Assembly: GCF_000265525.1 (NCBI RefSeq)
Contig: NC_018015.1
Coordinates: forward strand, 124,001 to 188,000
Origin: Thermococcus cleftensis
GTDB lineage: Archaea > Methanobacteriota_B > Thermococci > Thermococcales > Thermococcaceae
Reading direction: 5' to 3'
Length of the DNA: 64,000 nucleotides
Shown here in pieces: positions 47,008-52,673 of the stretch. Both the position numbers and the translations under genes were made by a program. Within the stretch, counting starts at the first letter, position 1; each line of letters opens with the position of its first letter. The notes under the pieces were generated by a model. That model did not search any database and was not told the origin of the DNA. It worked only from the letters and a program-made list of their open reading frames with translations.

Positions 47008-48294
47008 ATGCTGGAGAAGATCGAGACGGGAACGGCAGAGATCGCGGTCATCGGCCTGGGATACATAGGCCTTCCAACTGCCATAATGTTCGCCAACGCC
47101 GGGTTCAAGGTTACCGGCTATGAAATCAGAGAAGATGTTGTTGAGAGGATAAACTCGGGGAAAGCACACATCGTTGAGCCCGAGATTGACGAGCTCCTCA
47201 GGAGGGCCGTCGAGAGCGGGAACCTTAAGGCGACTTCCAACCCAAGGGATATAGAGGGAAAGGACGCCTACATAATATGCGTCCAGACGCCCCTGAAGGA
47301 CGACAAAACACCGGACCTGAGCTACCTTGAGAGCGCCGTTAGAACCGTTGCAGGGGCCATGAAAAGGAACTCCCTAGTCGTCATAGAGAGCACCGTTCCA
47401 CCGCTCACCACCGTTAAGATGGCGGGGCTCATAGAGGAGCTGACGGGCTTCAAAGCTGGAGAGGACTTCTACATGGTTCACGCCCCGGAGAGGGTGATGC
47501 CGGGGAGGATATTCAAGGAGCTCGTCTACAACTCTCGCATCTTCGGCGGGATAACGCCCGAGAGCGCGGAGATGGCGGAGAAGCTCTACCGCTCCTTCGT
47601 CCGGGGGCAGACCTTCAAGACCAGCTCCACCGTCAGTGAAGTCGTCAAGCTAATGGAGAACACCTTCCGCGACGTGAACATAGCCCTAGCGAACGAGTTC
47701 GCCTTCCTCGCGCACCAGTACGGGATAGACGTCTTTGAGGCGATAGAGCTGGCCAACACCCACCCGCGGGTCAGGATACACTCGCCCGGCATAGGCGTCG
47801 GTGGGCACTGTCTCCCGAAGGACCCCCACCTTCTCCTCTGGCCGGCTAGGGAGGACTTCGGGCTGATAAGGCTTGCAAGGGAGATAAACGACTCGATGCC
47901 CCTCTTCACCAAGGATTTGCTCTTCTCGGCCCTCAGGGAACTCAACGTTCCGCCGGAGGACGCTGTAGTGGCGGTTCTCGGCCTGGCCTACAAGGGCGAC
48001 AGCGACGACACGAGGAATTCCCCCGCCCTGGCATTCATAGAGGCCATCGAGGGTGACGTCGCGGAGGTGAGAACCTACGACCCCTTCGTAGGGGGGAGCG
48101 CGGGGAGCGTTGAAGACGCTCTTAGGGAGGCCGACGCGGCCGTCATAGCTACAGACCACACGGCCTTCAAGTCCCTCGACTGGGAGAAACTCGGAGAGCT
48201 CATGAGGACAAGGATTCTGATAGACGGCAGGCACGTAGTTGAAAACCCGCCGAGGGGCTTCCTATTCAAGGGCATCGGGAGGGGGGAGTATTGA
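47008..48294 (+). CDS. wecC: UDP-N-acetyl-D-mannosamine dehydrogenase (UDP-glucose/GDP-mannose DH family)
   Basis: A 428-residue NAD-dependent four-electron dehydrogenase. The Rossmann start has IAVIGLGYIGLPTAIMFANAGFKV in brief GxGxxG form, the UDP-binding core has ENTFRDVNIALANEFAFL and the catalytic Cys is in GIGVGGHCLPKDP. The third domain begins AVLGLAYKGDSDDTRNSPAL. It oxidises UDP-ManNAc to UDP-ManNAcA, an N-glycan or polysaccharide precursor. ATG 47008 follows GGGTGAAG. It overlaps wecB by TTGA. Confidence 0.9.
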   Translation: MLEKIETGTAEIAVIGLGYIGLPTAIMFANAGFKVTGYEIREDVVERINSGKAHIVEPEIDELLRRAVESGNLKATSNPRDIEGKDAYIICVQTPLKDDKTPDLSYLESAVRTVAGAMKRNSLVVIESTVPPLTTVKMAGLIEELTGFKAGEDFYMVHAPERVMPGRIFKELVYNSRIFGGITPESAEMAEKLYRSFVRGQTFKTSSTVSEVVKLMENTFRDVNIALANEFAFLAHQYGIDVFEAIELANTHPRVRIHSPGIGVGGHCLPKDPHLLLWPAREDFGLIRLAREINDSMPLFTKDLLFSALRELNVPPEDAVVAVLGLAYKGDSDDTRNSPALAFIEAIEGDVAEVRTYDPFVGGSAGSVEDALREADAAVIATDHTAFKSLDWEKLGELMRTRILIDGRHVVENPPRGFLFKGIGRGEY

Positions 48295-49424
48295 GGCCCG
48301 CCTTCGTCTTCGGAACGCGGCCGGAGATAATAAAGCTCGCCCCCGTCATAAGGGCGTTTGAGGAGAGGGGCGTTAAACCGCTCCTCGTGCACACGGGCCA
48401 GCACTACGACTACGAGATGAGCAGGGTCTTCCTTGAGGAGCTCGGGCTTCCCGAGATAGACCACCACCTGGAGGTAGGCTCAGGCACACAGGCGGAGCAG
48501 ACCGGGACGGCGATGATAAAGATCGAGCGGGTCCTGATGGACGAGAGGCCAGATGTAACCATTGTCCAGGGCGACACCAACACGGTTTTAGCTGGAGCCC
48601 TGGCAAGCGTCAAGCTGAAGATACCTGTGGCTCACGTTGAAGCGGGCCTGAGGAGCTTCGACAGGACGATGCCGGAGGAGATAAACAGGGTTTTAGCGGA
48701 TCACGCGAGTGAGGTCCTCTTCGCGCCGACCGAAGAGGCTAAGAAAAACCTTGAACGCGAGGGCATAACGGAGAACGTCTACGTCGTCGGCAACACCGTC
48801 GTTGATGCGGTTCTTCAGAACGCTGAGCTGGCCGAGAGGAAGAGCGACGTCCTGGAAAGGTTCGGCCTGAGGCCAGGGGAGTACGTTCTAATAACGGCCC
48901 ACAGGGCCGAGAACACCGACAGCAGAGAGAACCTGGCCAAGCTGGTGGAAATCCTCGAGAGCCTGCCGATGATCGGAATCTACCCCATGCACCCCCGCAC
49001 GAGGAACAGGCTGAAGGAGTTCGGCCTGTGGGAGAGGGTAAGCTCGATAGGGAACCTGATCGTGACCAAACCCCTCGGCTACCTCGACTTCCTCAGGCTG
49101 GAGAGGAACGCCTTTGCGATAATGACGGACTCCGGTGGAATACAGGAGGAGGCGATAATCCTCAACGTGCCCTGCTTAACCCTCCGCTACAACACGGAAA
49201 GGCCGGAAACGATTGAGGCCGGCGGCAACGTCCTGGTCGGTCTCGAAAAGGAAAGGGCGATAGGTTATTTGAGGAAACTCATGGACGACGAGGAGTTCTA
49301 CAGGAGAATGGCGAGCGCGCCGAACCCATTCGGAGACGGGAAGGCGGGAGAGAGGATAGCCGAAATCCTGATGGGGCTGTACGAGGAAGGAAAGCTGAAG
49401 GTGAAGAGCTCGAAGTTCATCTAG
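48291..49424 (+). CDS. wecB: UDP-N-acetylglucosamine 2-epimerase
   Basis: A 377-residue epimerase that interconverts UDP-GlcNAc and UDP-ManNAc. It starts RPAFVFGTRPEIIKLAPVI and has TGQHYDYEMSRVFLEELGL, VQGDTNTVLAGALASVK, HVEAGLRSFDRTMPEEINR and TDSGGIQEEA, all key parts of the WecB fold. With wecC it makes UDP-ManNAcA. The start is TTG overlapping the wecC stop (TTGA). The gene is tail-to-tail with the secreted paralog operon, overlapping by four bases. Confidence 0.95.
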   Translation: MRPAFVFGTRPEIIKLAPVIRAFEERGVKPLLVHTGQHYDYEMSRVFLEELGLPEIDHHLEVGSGTQAEQTGTAMIKIERVLMDERPDVTIVQGDTNTVLAGALASVKLKIPVAHVEAGLRSFDRTMPEEINRVLADHASEVLFAPTEEAKKNLEREGITENVYVVGNTVVDAVLQNAELAERKSDVLERFGLRPGEYVLITAHRAENTDSRENLAKLVEILESLPMIGIYPMHPRTRNRLKEFGLWERVSSIGNLIVTKPLGYLDFLRLERNAFAIMTDSGGIQEEAIILNVPCLTLRYNTERPETIEAGGNVLVGLEKERAIGYLRKLMDDEEFYRRMASAPNPFGDGKAGERIAEILMGLYEEGKLKVKSSKFI

Positions 49425-50110
49425 TTCAGGGTCTCCGCCCAGGCTTCCAGCTCCCTCACCACCTCACGGGAAAGGAGTTCCCAGCAGTCCTCGCCGCTGA
49501 GCTTTCCGTTCCTGACCTCGAGGGTGTTCCAGTAAACAACCAGCGTGGAGTAGGGCCTACCGCTGGCGTCCCCCCTCGCCTCGGCCGTCTGGAACAGCTC
49601 ACGGGCAAAGTCCTCCAGGTTGTCCGTGTTCCCCCTGTACATTTCCTCAACGGAGAGATAGCTCCCAACGTCGCCGCTGGAGCTCGCGTAGAGCAGAACG
49701 CTGGCGTAGCAGGTCTCGTAGTAGAACCTATCCTCGTGTCCCTGGAAGGGTATGAACAGCACCACCACTGGCTCGTCTATCCAATCCGGCGGACTCTCGC
49801 CGGGCATTATTATTACCGGCCTGACGTGGGCAAACTCCACGCTGATGTTCCTCTCCTCGAAGGCCTCCCTGATGGAGGATTTGAGGGCGCTTTCAAAATC
49901 CCCCCGAAGACCAAACTCCGGGTAAACGTCGGAGGCAAGTTCCACCTCCAGGGGGAAATCAACCACCACACGCTCCCCTGTCGTCACGTTCTCGAGGTGG
50001 CTGAACTCACCGGAGGATTTCCACGAGACGTTGGCCGTGAGGAGGAGATAGCCCGCGGTCGAATATGCTATCAGCATGAGGAGCAGGAGGACTTTTCCGG
50101 ACCGGTTCAC
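49421..50110 (-). CDS. exported protein, third of three tandem paralogs
   Basis: A 229-residue protein with an N-terminal signal anchor (about 6-25, LLLLMLIAYSTAGYLLLT) and an extracellular domain. It contains VVVLFIPFQGH, CYASVLLYASSSGDVGSYLS and a C-terminal GKLSGEDCWELLSREVVREL. The paralogs upstream share the YxSxGDxxxYL motif and a late Cys helix. It starts at GTG, overlapping the previous stop by four bases, so the three genes are one operon. No named family; function unknown. Confidence 0.7.
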   Translation of the reverse strand: MNRSGKVLLLLMLIAYSTAGYLLLTANVSWKSSGEFSHLENVTTGERVVVDFPLEVELASDVYPEFGLRGDFESALKSSIREAFEERNISVEFAHVRPVIIMPGESPPDWIDEPVVVLFIPFQGHEDRFYYETCYASVLLYASSSGDVGSYLSVEEMYRGNTDNLEDFARELFQTAEARGDASGRPYSTLVVYWNTLEVRNGKLSGEDCWELLSREVVRELEAWAETLN

Positions 50111-50682
50111 GATCGTCCACCCTCCAGTATTCTCTCAACGTGATCAACCAGGGCCTCCGAGGAAATCTCCAGCAGGTGCCTGTTGTAGCCTGCGAAACCG
50201 ATGAGGCCACGGGACTCGTCAGAGACGTCCACCAGAAGGTAGGCCTGGCCCTCGGGCGTCTCGCTTTCATTAAAGGCTGATAGAACCCCCATTCCACCAG
50301 TTGAGTTTAAATGGCTGAGGTAGTCGCCCGGGTCGCCCGAGCTGGAGTAAAACGCGCCAACCCTGATGTGCCCCCGTGAGGAGACCGGGAAGTAGGTGAT
50401 GTTGATCCACTCAACCCAGACGGCTAAGAATTGACCGTCGCACTCAACGGGGGCCGATAGGAGAAGGACCCTGTACCCCCTGGACCTGAGTTCAGAGGCA
50501 ACGAGGTTTCCGAGGGTAGAGTCGGGGTAAACGCAAAAGCCGGAACCCGCGGAGACGTTCACCTGGTCCGGCATCACCACGACCTTGGAGTCCGTTTTCG
50601 AGCTTCCGAAAACGAAGGGGCCGAAGTAGAAGGCAAGAAGGAGTACCAAGAGAACCGCGGCCGCGAGGTGGAGCTTCCTCAT
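50107..50682 (-). CDS. exported protein, second of three tandem paralogs
   Basis: A 191-residue protein with an N-terminal hydrophobic signal anchor (about 5-26, LAAAVLLVLLLAFYFGPFVF) and an extracellular domain with AVWVEWINITYFPV, IRVGAFYSSSGDPGDYLSHLN and QAYLLVDVSDESRGLIGF. It has two Cys in CVYPDST and VECDGQ and shares the YSSSGDxxDYL motif with its neighbours. ATG 50682 begins right after the previous stop (TGAATG), so the genes are coupled. Unknown function. Confidence 0.7.
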   Translation of the reverse strand: MRKLHLAAAVLLVLLLAFYFGPFVFGSSKTDSKVVVMPDQVNVSAGSGFCVYPDSTLGNLVASELRSRGYRVLLLSAPVECDGQFLAVWVEWINITYFPVSSRGHIRVGAFYSSSGDPGDYLSHLNSTGGMGVLSAFNESETPEGQAYLLVDVSDESRGLIGFAGYNRHLLEISSEALVDHVERILEGGRS

Positions 50683-51345
50683 TCACAACACCCCTGACGT
50701 CTGAAGAAGCTCTCCGACGCCCTCCGCTATGGCCTCAACCGCGCCCTCGCAGGGATCGCCTCCGACCAAGCGGCCCCTCTCAGCCTTCATTCCCCTCCAC
50801 CACGCTATCCCAACGTCCCCTGAAAGTCTGTTGGTTCCAAGGTATGCCATTGCCCTAGCATCGAGCTCCTCCGCGAAGGCCTCGGGGTCGCTTGTCTTGA
50901 TGGCCGCGTAGGCGGCCAGGAAGCTCTGGACGTCTCCCACAGAGGAGTAGTACGCAACGACGTTCAGCTTGCAGGTCCGGGAGAGAAGTCCGCTCTTCTC
51001 GTCCTCCGAGAGAACGTAGACGACGAGCAGTCTGCCCTTGAATTGAACCGCGGGAAGGCTATCCATTCCCGTGGCAACGACCCCCGGGTCAAGTCCGTAC
51101 CTCCGGGCCACAGGAGGAATGGCGACCTCAAGTTTGGACTTCAGCGGTTCCCTCGCCACGACCACTATGTAAAGCTCGTTCGGGTCAAGGGGGACGTGGA
51201 CTGAGTTGTCGTCGGTTAAAGTGGGACCACCTGTAGACACCCCTCCCCCCGAGTACTCAGTAAATACGCTGTCCTGGGAGGCCATAATAAGCGTTGGGGC
51301 CGCGAGAACCGCGAGAAGAACGACTATCAAGAGCGCCTTCTTCAT
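50683..51345 (-). CDS. exported protein, first of three tandem paralogs
   Basis: A 220-residue protein with a classical signal peptide (MKKALLIVVLLAVLAAPTLIMA) and an extracellular domain: NELYIVVVAREPLKSKLEV, RLLVVYVLSEDEKSGLL, CKLNVVAYYSSVGDVQSFLAAY and a C-terminal DPCEGAVEAIAEGVGELL. It shares the YYSSxGDxxSFL motif with the two genes downstream. GGTGAGTGGTT precedes ATG 51345, with TTATTTAAG at about 51376-51384. Unknown function, probably a cell-surface complex with its paralogs. Confidence 0.7.
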   Translation of the reverse strand: MKKALLIVVLLAVLAAPTLIMASQDSVFTEYSGGGVSTGGPTLTDDNSVHVPLDPNELYIVVVAREPLKSKLEVAIPPVARRYGLDPGVVATGMDSLPAVQFKGRLLVVYVLSEDEKSGLLSRTCKLNVVAYYSSVGDVQSFLAAYAAIKTSDPEAFAEELDARAMAYLGTNRLSGDVGIAWWRGMKAERGRLVGGDPCEGAVEAIAEGVGELLQTSGVL

Positions 51346-51413
51346 AACCACTCACCAGGGTAGAAATTGGTGGAGGCACTTAAATAATTTTTGGACTTGT
51401 GAGCGAAAAAGCG

Positions 51414-52673
51414 CTAAACGGGTGTTCCGATGTAAATGCCGTGCCTCGTCCTGACTATCCTCACCCTGATCCTGTCCCCCACTTCCGCATCGGTGTTGAT
51501 GACCTCTATTAGACGGTTCCGGGCTTTGGCCAGCATCTCCCCCTTTATCCTGCCAGGGAGAACCACCTCCGCCCTGACTATCTCCCCGGGCCGGAAGGCG
51601 AGCGGAATGAACTCTCTCTTCTCCATGCCGAAGTGCTTCGGCCTCAGGACGAGAGGTCTCATACCGGTCTTCTCTTCGAGTTTCCTGAGCCAGGCGTAGA
51701 ACTCCTTGAAGGGGACGAGCTTCGCTATCGTTGGGTTCCTGCCGAACTTGTAGGGAATGTAGTTCTGGAAGCCGAGGGCCGGCCAGCGCTTCCCGGCGCC
51801 GATTTTCCGTGCAAACTCAATGAAGGCCTCGGCCTCGTCGTCGTTTATCCCGAAGATTATGACCGGAGCGATGAGGACGTCTATCCCAGCGTTCACCAAA
51901 GCCTCCGCCATCTCGAGGACGTGCTCGAGGTCGTAGTCCTTCCTGCCCATCAGCATCTTAGCCTTGTCGGGGTCGAGGGAGTGAAGAGATAGGTTCACCC
52001 TGTCGAGACCGGCCTCGGCGAGCTCCTCGACAAGCCTGTCGTTGAGAAGAGTTCCGTTGCTCTGCATCGAGATAACGGAGACGTTTGGGTGCTCGCGAAG
52101 GGCCTGAACAAGTTCGACCCTAAAGGGATATATCAGAGGCTCCCCCTGGCCGTCGATGTGGGCCTCCAAACCCTTACCCTTTATCCTCGCCACGTCATCG
52201 AACCACTTCATCAGGTAGTCCACGTCCACGACGTAGTCGAGCTTCCTTGTCCTAGAATAGGGCCCTTCATCGACGGAGCAGAAGATGCAGCTTAAATTAC
52301 ACCCGCTGACACCGCGAATCTGTATGAGGTTCGTCCCCCTGTCTATTAAACCGAAGGCGTTGTAGCCTAAGAGGGGGATTTCCATTCCCTCGTGAATGTA
52401 CAGTACCTTTCTGTCGGTGTACCTGTTCCTTAACAGCGCCCCCAGGTTGTTCTGAATGTATATCGCCACGAACTTCTCGATTCCGGGGTAGTCAGTGTCG
52501 ATGACGAGAAGGCCGTTTCTCACGGAGATTTCAGGCCTGACCCTGTACTTTCTCCGTATCACCCTCGCGAGCTCGTCCTTATCAAAGTCCGCGTACAGGG
52601 TCTCGCGCCATATCAACCTCACGCTCTCGCCGAGATCCTCGAAGGTGACGTGGGGGAGGTGAACCTCAATCAT
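51414..52673 (-). CDS. radical SAM protein with C-terminal TRAM-like domain
   Basis: A 419-residue radical SAM enzyme. The [4Fe-4S]-binding CNLSCIFC (Cys125, 129, 132) follows an about 115-residue N-terminal domain. The AdoMet GGExP-like motif is DGQGEPLIYP, and later strands SMQSNGTLL and RVNLSLHSLD complete the barrel. The C-terminus (FRPGEIVRAEVVLPGRIKG ... VGDRIRVRIVRTRHGIYIG) is an OB/TRAM-like RNA-binding fold, so a tRNA-modifying role is plausible. It belongs to an archaeal predicted Fe-S oxidoreductase group (COG2100-like) with no proven reaction. Confidence 0.85.
   Translation of the reverse strand: MIEVHLPHVTFEDLGESVRLIWRETLYADFDKDELARVIRRKYRVRPEISVRNGLLVIDTDYPGIEKFVAIYIQNNLGALLRNRYTDRKVLYIHEGMEIPLLGYNAFGLIDRGTNLIQIRGVSGCNLSCIFCSVDEGPYSRTRKLDYVVDVDYLMKWFDDVARIKGKGLEAHIDGQGEPLIYPFRVELVQALREHPNVSVISMQSNGTLLNDRLVEELAEAGLDRVNLSLHSLDPDKAKMLMGRKDYDLEHVLEMAEALVNAGIDVLIAPVIIFGINDDEAEAFIEFARKIGAGKRWPALGFQNYIPYKFGRNPTIAKLVPFKEFYAWLRKLEEKTGMRPLVLRPKHFGMEKREFIPLAFRPGEIVRAEVVLPGRIKGEMLAKARNRLIEVINTDAEVGDRIRVRIVRTRHGIYIGTPV

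Follow-up and report, generated by a model that had tools for sequence, protein, structure and literature searches.

What is encoded by three small, tandem genes (A, B and C) in the gap between wecB and a radical SAM protein gene of Thermococcus cleftensis, and do their products assemble with one another at the cell surface, as the original prediction supposed from their differing signal types? The window analyzed is the whole 64,000-nucleotide stretch C1:124001-188000 of a 1.95-Mb host genome, and inspection of its ORFs places A, B, and C on the minus strand, in a neighborhood of wecB/wecC, radical SAM, and Mrp antiporter genes. The features are as follows.

48291..49424, plus strand, wecB (UDP-GlcNAc 2-epimerase), the left border
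49300..51400, exchanged block, DNA about 95% identical to that of locus L032, with flanks at about 80%
49421..50110, minus strand, gene C, 229 aa, initiated at GTG; N-terminal anchor, paralog of A, YASSSGD, invariant C134 and C209
50107..50682, minus strand, gene B, 191 aa; N-terminal anchor, remote paralog, FYSSSGD, invariant C50 and C81
50683..51345, minus strand, gene A, 220 aa; signal-like N-terminal helix, then a predicted alpha/beta domain with YYSSVGD
51345, start of gene A, ATG with GGTGA upstream; the in-frame GTG at 51351 is a weaker candidate
51346..51413, minus strand, intergenic stretch with BRE/TATA-like promoter ccaaaaattatttaag and Shine-Dalgarno-like ggtga, the consensus judged by eye
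51414..52673, minus strand, radical SAM protein gene, the right border, a core gene in 90 of 94 Thermococcaceae genomes

The genes are tightly packed: A and B abut, with the end of A being the start of B, B shares 4 nt with C, and the 3' end of C overlaps wecB by 4 nt. The TATA-like element and the ggtga upstream of A make it very probable that the trio is a single transcription unit with its own promoter. Sequence comparison finds elements like that of A upstream of A at other loci, and cassettes of B and of a further family, E, are preceded by other TATA-like elements. By eye, each protein starts with a hydrophobic segment, signal-peptide-like in A (MKKALLIVVLLAVLAAPTLIMASQ) and anchor-like in B and C, in agreement with the prediction that all three are secreted or membrane anchored and that their signal types differ.

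The description of the trio as a paralogous operon with a YxSxGD-type motif also holds, as the ORFs are in place, each carries a version of the motif, and the paralogy is beyond chance. A and C compare as clear paralogs (BLASTP, 1e-7; profile-profile, 6e-19 over 217 columns, and 2.5e-18 with the transmembrane [TM] segment removed). A and B give no similarity signal in pairwise comparison, and at the profile level they match with an E value of 4.6e-6 and the motif aligned in register; once the TM segments are removed, the score is 33, and a joint A+C profile scores 37.6 against B, whereas 100 column shuffles reach 23.6 at most and a reversed profile 14.7. B is a remote paralog, detectable only by profile. 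Direct profile comparison of B with C is not significant (19.6 against a shuffle maximum of 21.1), and we relate these two because both link through A only. Within the motif, Y132, Y133, S134, and G137 are invariant in an alignment of 30 A sequences and D138 is nearly so (at least 90%); Y112, S113, and G116, and not D117, are invariant in 12 B sequences, as are Y141, S144, and D147 in 9 C sequences. Family D is tentatively accepted as a probable further paralog (A profile, 8.7e-4 in genome G024).

A late cysteine followed by a helix, predicted for two of the proteins, proves to be a family trait of C, with C134 and C209 present in 9/9 sequences, and does not extend to the family of A, in which C125 and C199 occur in two sequences only, the window protein and its closest relative. 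Ten other A proteins have C162 and C178, the remainder have no cysteine or a single one, and the alternative pairs of A mostly co-occur. B has C50 and C81 in 12/12 sequences. Such pairing is as expected for disulfides in an extracytoplasmic domain, and no conserved lipobox-type cysteine is seen near the N terminus in the A, B, or C alignments.

The original prediction recognized no family, and no match to a known, characterized one emerges from Pfam, NCBIfam, or PDB-sequence searches: scans of A, B, and C against Pfam and NCBIfam give zero matches at E<=1, and profile searches of PDB chain sequences return noise only, and no PelC. A, B, and C look like a protein family so far undescribed, and matches are found only in Thermococcaceae. 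The A profile has matches in 47 of the 115 genomes searched in the phylum, every one of them from that family, and the B profile matches 35 of 94; the C profile matches 40 genomes, although some of these hits are A proteins and the full C-type count is lower. Profile searches find no further A, B, or C copies in the same genome, a scan of genome contigs with the A sequence finds no relative, and 13 other archaeal genomes give no match in a search run without a positive control. There are no relatives of A in plasmid and phage records and no match at E<=1e-3 in a viral structure library. Single A-like genes are present in another genus outside the radical SAM slot (L065:9568-10149 and L126:5126-5710), where they adjoin, by eye, apparent ftsZ, secE/nusG, and ribosomal L11/L1 genes.

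Comparison of about 60 Thermococcaceae loci shows that the slot has mostly constant borders, the radical SAM gene and wecB, with spoIIM standing in for the latter at loci that lack wecBC, and that its content varies. A is alone at at least 11 loci, B is alone at at least 5, and A+B+C are together at at least 6; further combinations are A+B, B+C, A+C, A+D, A+E, B+E, B+C+E, and E alone. The slot is empty at L103, L106-L108, L110-L113, L115, and L124, and broken copies are present at L033 (C), L040 (A), L047 (A and C), L062 (A), L063 (C), and L128 (B). Such empty slots and broken copies in several genomes show that the cassette function is dispensable.

Other genes also occupy the slot. Family E consists of small membrane proteins of about 115-204 aa with the motif DPTxWYVGN (e.g., L051:10467-11036, L043:10396-10902, and L062:10410-10976); the one member checked has no Pfam or NCBIfam match, and E was rejected as a paralog, being absent from all A, B, and C profile matches. 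A lipoprotein-like gene of 726-799 aa lies in the slot, alone or beside B, at L104:4023-6422, L105:3354-5732, L119:3249-5429, and L121:3663-5870. The two tested, from L104 and L121, have a GH13 alpha-amylase domain and an AMPK1-type CBM, and those of L105 and L119 are similar to them at their starts. At L096:4037-5350, a 437-aa gene, an IS605-type TnpB by eye, splits the slot gene E. Between the radical SAM gene and B at L129, an A-type promoter-like element and a short A-like frame start remain, apparently the deletion scar of a lost A.

DNA identity to L032 climbs from ~80% to ~95% near 49.3 kb and drops again inside the radical SAM gene, a sharp change at either end of the cassette. Within the block, identity is lower in patches of A (83%) and at about 50050-50350 (60-69%). 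This last stretch, in the 3' half of B, may be a mosaic patch or reflect compensated frameshifts. Synonymous divergence (dS) from L032 is 0.26 for A, 0.43 for B, and 0.17 for C, against 0.86-1.09 for the flanking radical SAM, wecB, wecC, DUF354, and spoIIM genes and 0.98 for argS; other flanking values are 0.62 for an ACT-domain gene and 0.25-0.74 for the mrp genes. The mrp genes, which lie further right, also have low dS against L034, whereas A is near saturation there (2.99), and the low cassette dS is therefore specific to the L032 pair. Other pairs behave similarly, with a dS of 0.16 for A against 1.56 for the flanks in L046/L054, and 0.36 for C against 1.05 for the flanks in L052/L130. 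The reverse pattern is seen between L034 and L097, in which both flanks are 92-98% identical and the slot (A+B versus B+E) only 48-68%, with sharp transitions, one where wecB ends and one close to the radical SAM end of the slot. The final cassette gene at 23 loci, whichever of A, B, C, D, and E it is, shows an identical 15-nt antisense overlap with the wecB end, such that the antisense of the wecB ...SRFI-stop is the ...SDEP-stop-like tail common to otherwise different proteins (window positions 49410-49424 and homologous sites). These sequence patterns show that cassettes are exchanged as blocks, and the simplest reading is that they are joined in the conserved flanks by homologous recombination. 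A C-terminal SDEP sorting signal was considered and rejected, as the antisense overlap with wecB accounts for its recurrence.

The cassette genes evolve far faster than their neighbors, and the amino acid identity of A drops to 28-45% between species with a ~90% identical radical SAM protein. Against L032, dN/dS is 0.28-0.35 for the cassette genes and 0.05-0.15 for most flanking genes. These ratios argue that the genes are real, and A, B, and C are, on this evidence, functional genes under purifying but relaxed selection.

Structural models suggest what kind of domain is exchanged. The AlphaFold2 model of A, built on the A alignment (pLDDT 87.2, pTM 0.81), has helix 2-23, strands 25-39 and 57-63, helix 68-82, strand 86-89, helix 94-99, strands 105-118 and 122-134, helices 139-148 and 154-171, strand 176-191, and helix 198-216, and places the motif at the end of strand 122-134 and in the turn into the helix at 139. 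The model of B, built separately from 12 sequences with one good model of five (pLDDT 76.6, pTM 0.72), has the same order of core elements. Foldseek searches of the PDB match A to PelC (1.8e-4, probability 1.00), TraT (1.2e-3), GNA1162 (4.3e-3), and then LptE, and B to LptE (1.7e-3), TraT (3.4e-3), and, lower, Neisseria 3bf2 (1.7e-2). The A and B models thus independently show a resemblance to one class, the ring-forming or envelope lipoproteins. Because the TM-scores are modest, at roughly 0.3-0.6 (A-PelC, 0.33-0.51; A/B-TraT, 0.34-0.39; B-LptE, 0.43/0.58), the fold call is made at the level of topology, which may reflect convergence, and we claim neither descent nor membership.

Our favored explanation, in which we place about even confidence, is that the operon represents one allele of a surface-protein cassette that the Thermococcaceae exchange and whose products are membrane anchored and probably ring forming. 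The cassette occupies a fixed slot, has its own promoter-like element, and is replaced blockwise, most simply through homologous recombination in the flanks. Each protein, to judge from the models, would be an N-terminally anchored extracytoplasmic alpha/beta domain, often with a disulfide, with the order strand, helix, strand, long antiparallel strands, helix, strand, and C-terminal helix of the PelC/TraT/GNA1162/LptE kind. By analogy, neighboring domains may associate laterally into rings that sit beneath the S-layer, on the outside of the single membrane, and the rings would be homomeric in A-only or B-only genomes, or mixed where two or three of the proteins are present. We infer that the exposed, variable face would meet an outside partner, such as a virus, vesicle, mobile element, or surface glycan, and we propose that this contact is why the cassette changes rapidly and is swapped. 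It is doubtful, though conceivable, that recombination-driven allelic exchange of PelC/TraT-like surface rings decides who docks, be it viruses, vesicles, or mobile DNA, and we are similarly hesitant to see in such a docking system what variable surface receptors or exclusion proteins would look like in archaea.

An unlikely but tenable alternative is that the proteins are accessory factors of surface polysaccharide export or assembly, acting as a PelC/LptE-like ring or adaptor that would help a ManNAc(A)-containing glycan, made with WecB and WecC, to pass across or along the envelope. The fold resembles that of polysaccharide and LPS export lipoproteins, and wecB and wecC are adjacent in most genomes. 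However, wecBC lies on the opposite strand, and the link is weakened because loci keep one without the other: A is kept without wecBC at L041, L042, L053, L056, and L057, the slot is empty despite wecBC at L103, L110-L113, L115, and L124, and the A-like genes of another genus are away from wecBC.

A more specific form of the surface-cassette explanation, in our judgment quite improbable, is that the proteins act as TraT does in surface exclusion, or bar superinfection, keeping out conjugative elements, vesicles, or viruses, and that these invaders drive the swapping. TraT ranks high in the fold searches with either model, and fast divergence with swapping would fit an arms race, but there are no relatives in plasmid or phage records and no direct link to mobile elements.

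The predicted hetero-oligomer fares differently in its two parts. A surface oligomer was a fair guess, as the fold class includes ring formers (PelC, a 12-mer, and TraT, a 10-mer). An obligate A/B/C hetero-trimer or hetero-oligomer has the operon spacing and the co-occurrence of all three genes in its favor, and is nonetheless very improbable as an account of the locus: it is refuted because each of the three genes is present at some loci that lack the other two, as the solo loci and the pairs A+B, B+C, A+C, A+D, A+E, and B+E attest, whereas optional mixing and homo-rings are compatible with these data. For the same reason, differing signal types do not imply fixed partners. That these are lineage-specific ORFs with no selected function, decaying or drifting neutrally at a recombination hot spot, would suit the frequent broken copies, empty slots, and fast evolution, but is hardly credible given a dN/dS of about 0.3 in a close pair, the conserved motif and cysteine pairs, and the recurring promoter-like element.

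The surface-cassette explanation invites comparison with several known systems. PelC is a dodecameric lipoprotein ring that sits on PelB in Pel polysaccharide export (PMC12141448). It is the best fold match of A and, as predicted for A, a small, membrane-anchored extracytoplasmic domain; however, A, B, and C have no lipobox and no sequence similarity to it, there is no PelB barrel or pel gene nearby, and there is no outer membrane. TraT is a surface exclusion lipoprotein that forms an outward-facing decamer (PMC11733297). It resembles the models of A and B in fold, faces the outside, and is also found on the chromosomes of divergent lineages, whereas A, B, and C are archaeal, lack a lipobox, are not on plasmids, and have no tra genes. 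LptE and GNA1162 are likewise fold matches, with LptE the best for B, but archaea are not known to have LPS, an outer membrane, or an LptD partner. We do not file the locus under PelC, TraT, or LptE, as checks for a lipobox, for sequence similarity, and for a matching gene context all came out negative. If our reading is right, it presents a PelC/LptE/TraT-like domain that is not tied to an outer membrane, in a fold best known from outer-membrane lipoproteins.

The locus behaves like a variable surface cassette, and the one already known in the Thermococcales is VARTIG, a hypervariable module consisting of a large Ig-domain protein (arCOG07710) and variable partners (PMC8416519). The two share variable secreted or membrane proteins, the same archaeal order, and recombination between species. 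They differ in that VARTIG has a large Ig protein, whereas here a fixed slot holds one to three small non-Ig proteins; the large Ig-domain gene that opens a VARTIG operon at its 5' end is absent from the slot in the loci examined, and the first cassette gene encodes 220 aa with no Pfam match. If the surface-cassette explanation is right, the locus would be a second, compact hypervariable surface locus in the Thermococcales besides VARTIG, built from an undescribed family, and would offer a simple, genetically testable system for archaeal surface variation by cassette swapping between conserved flanks.
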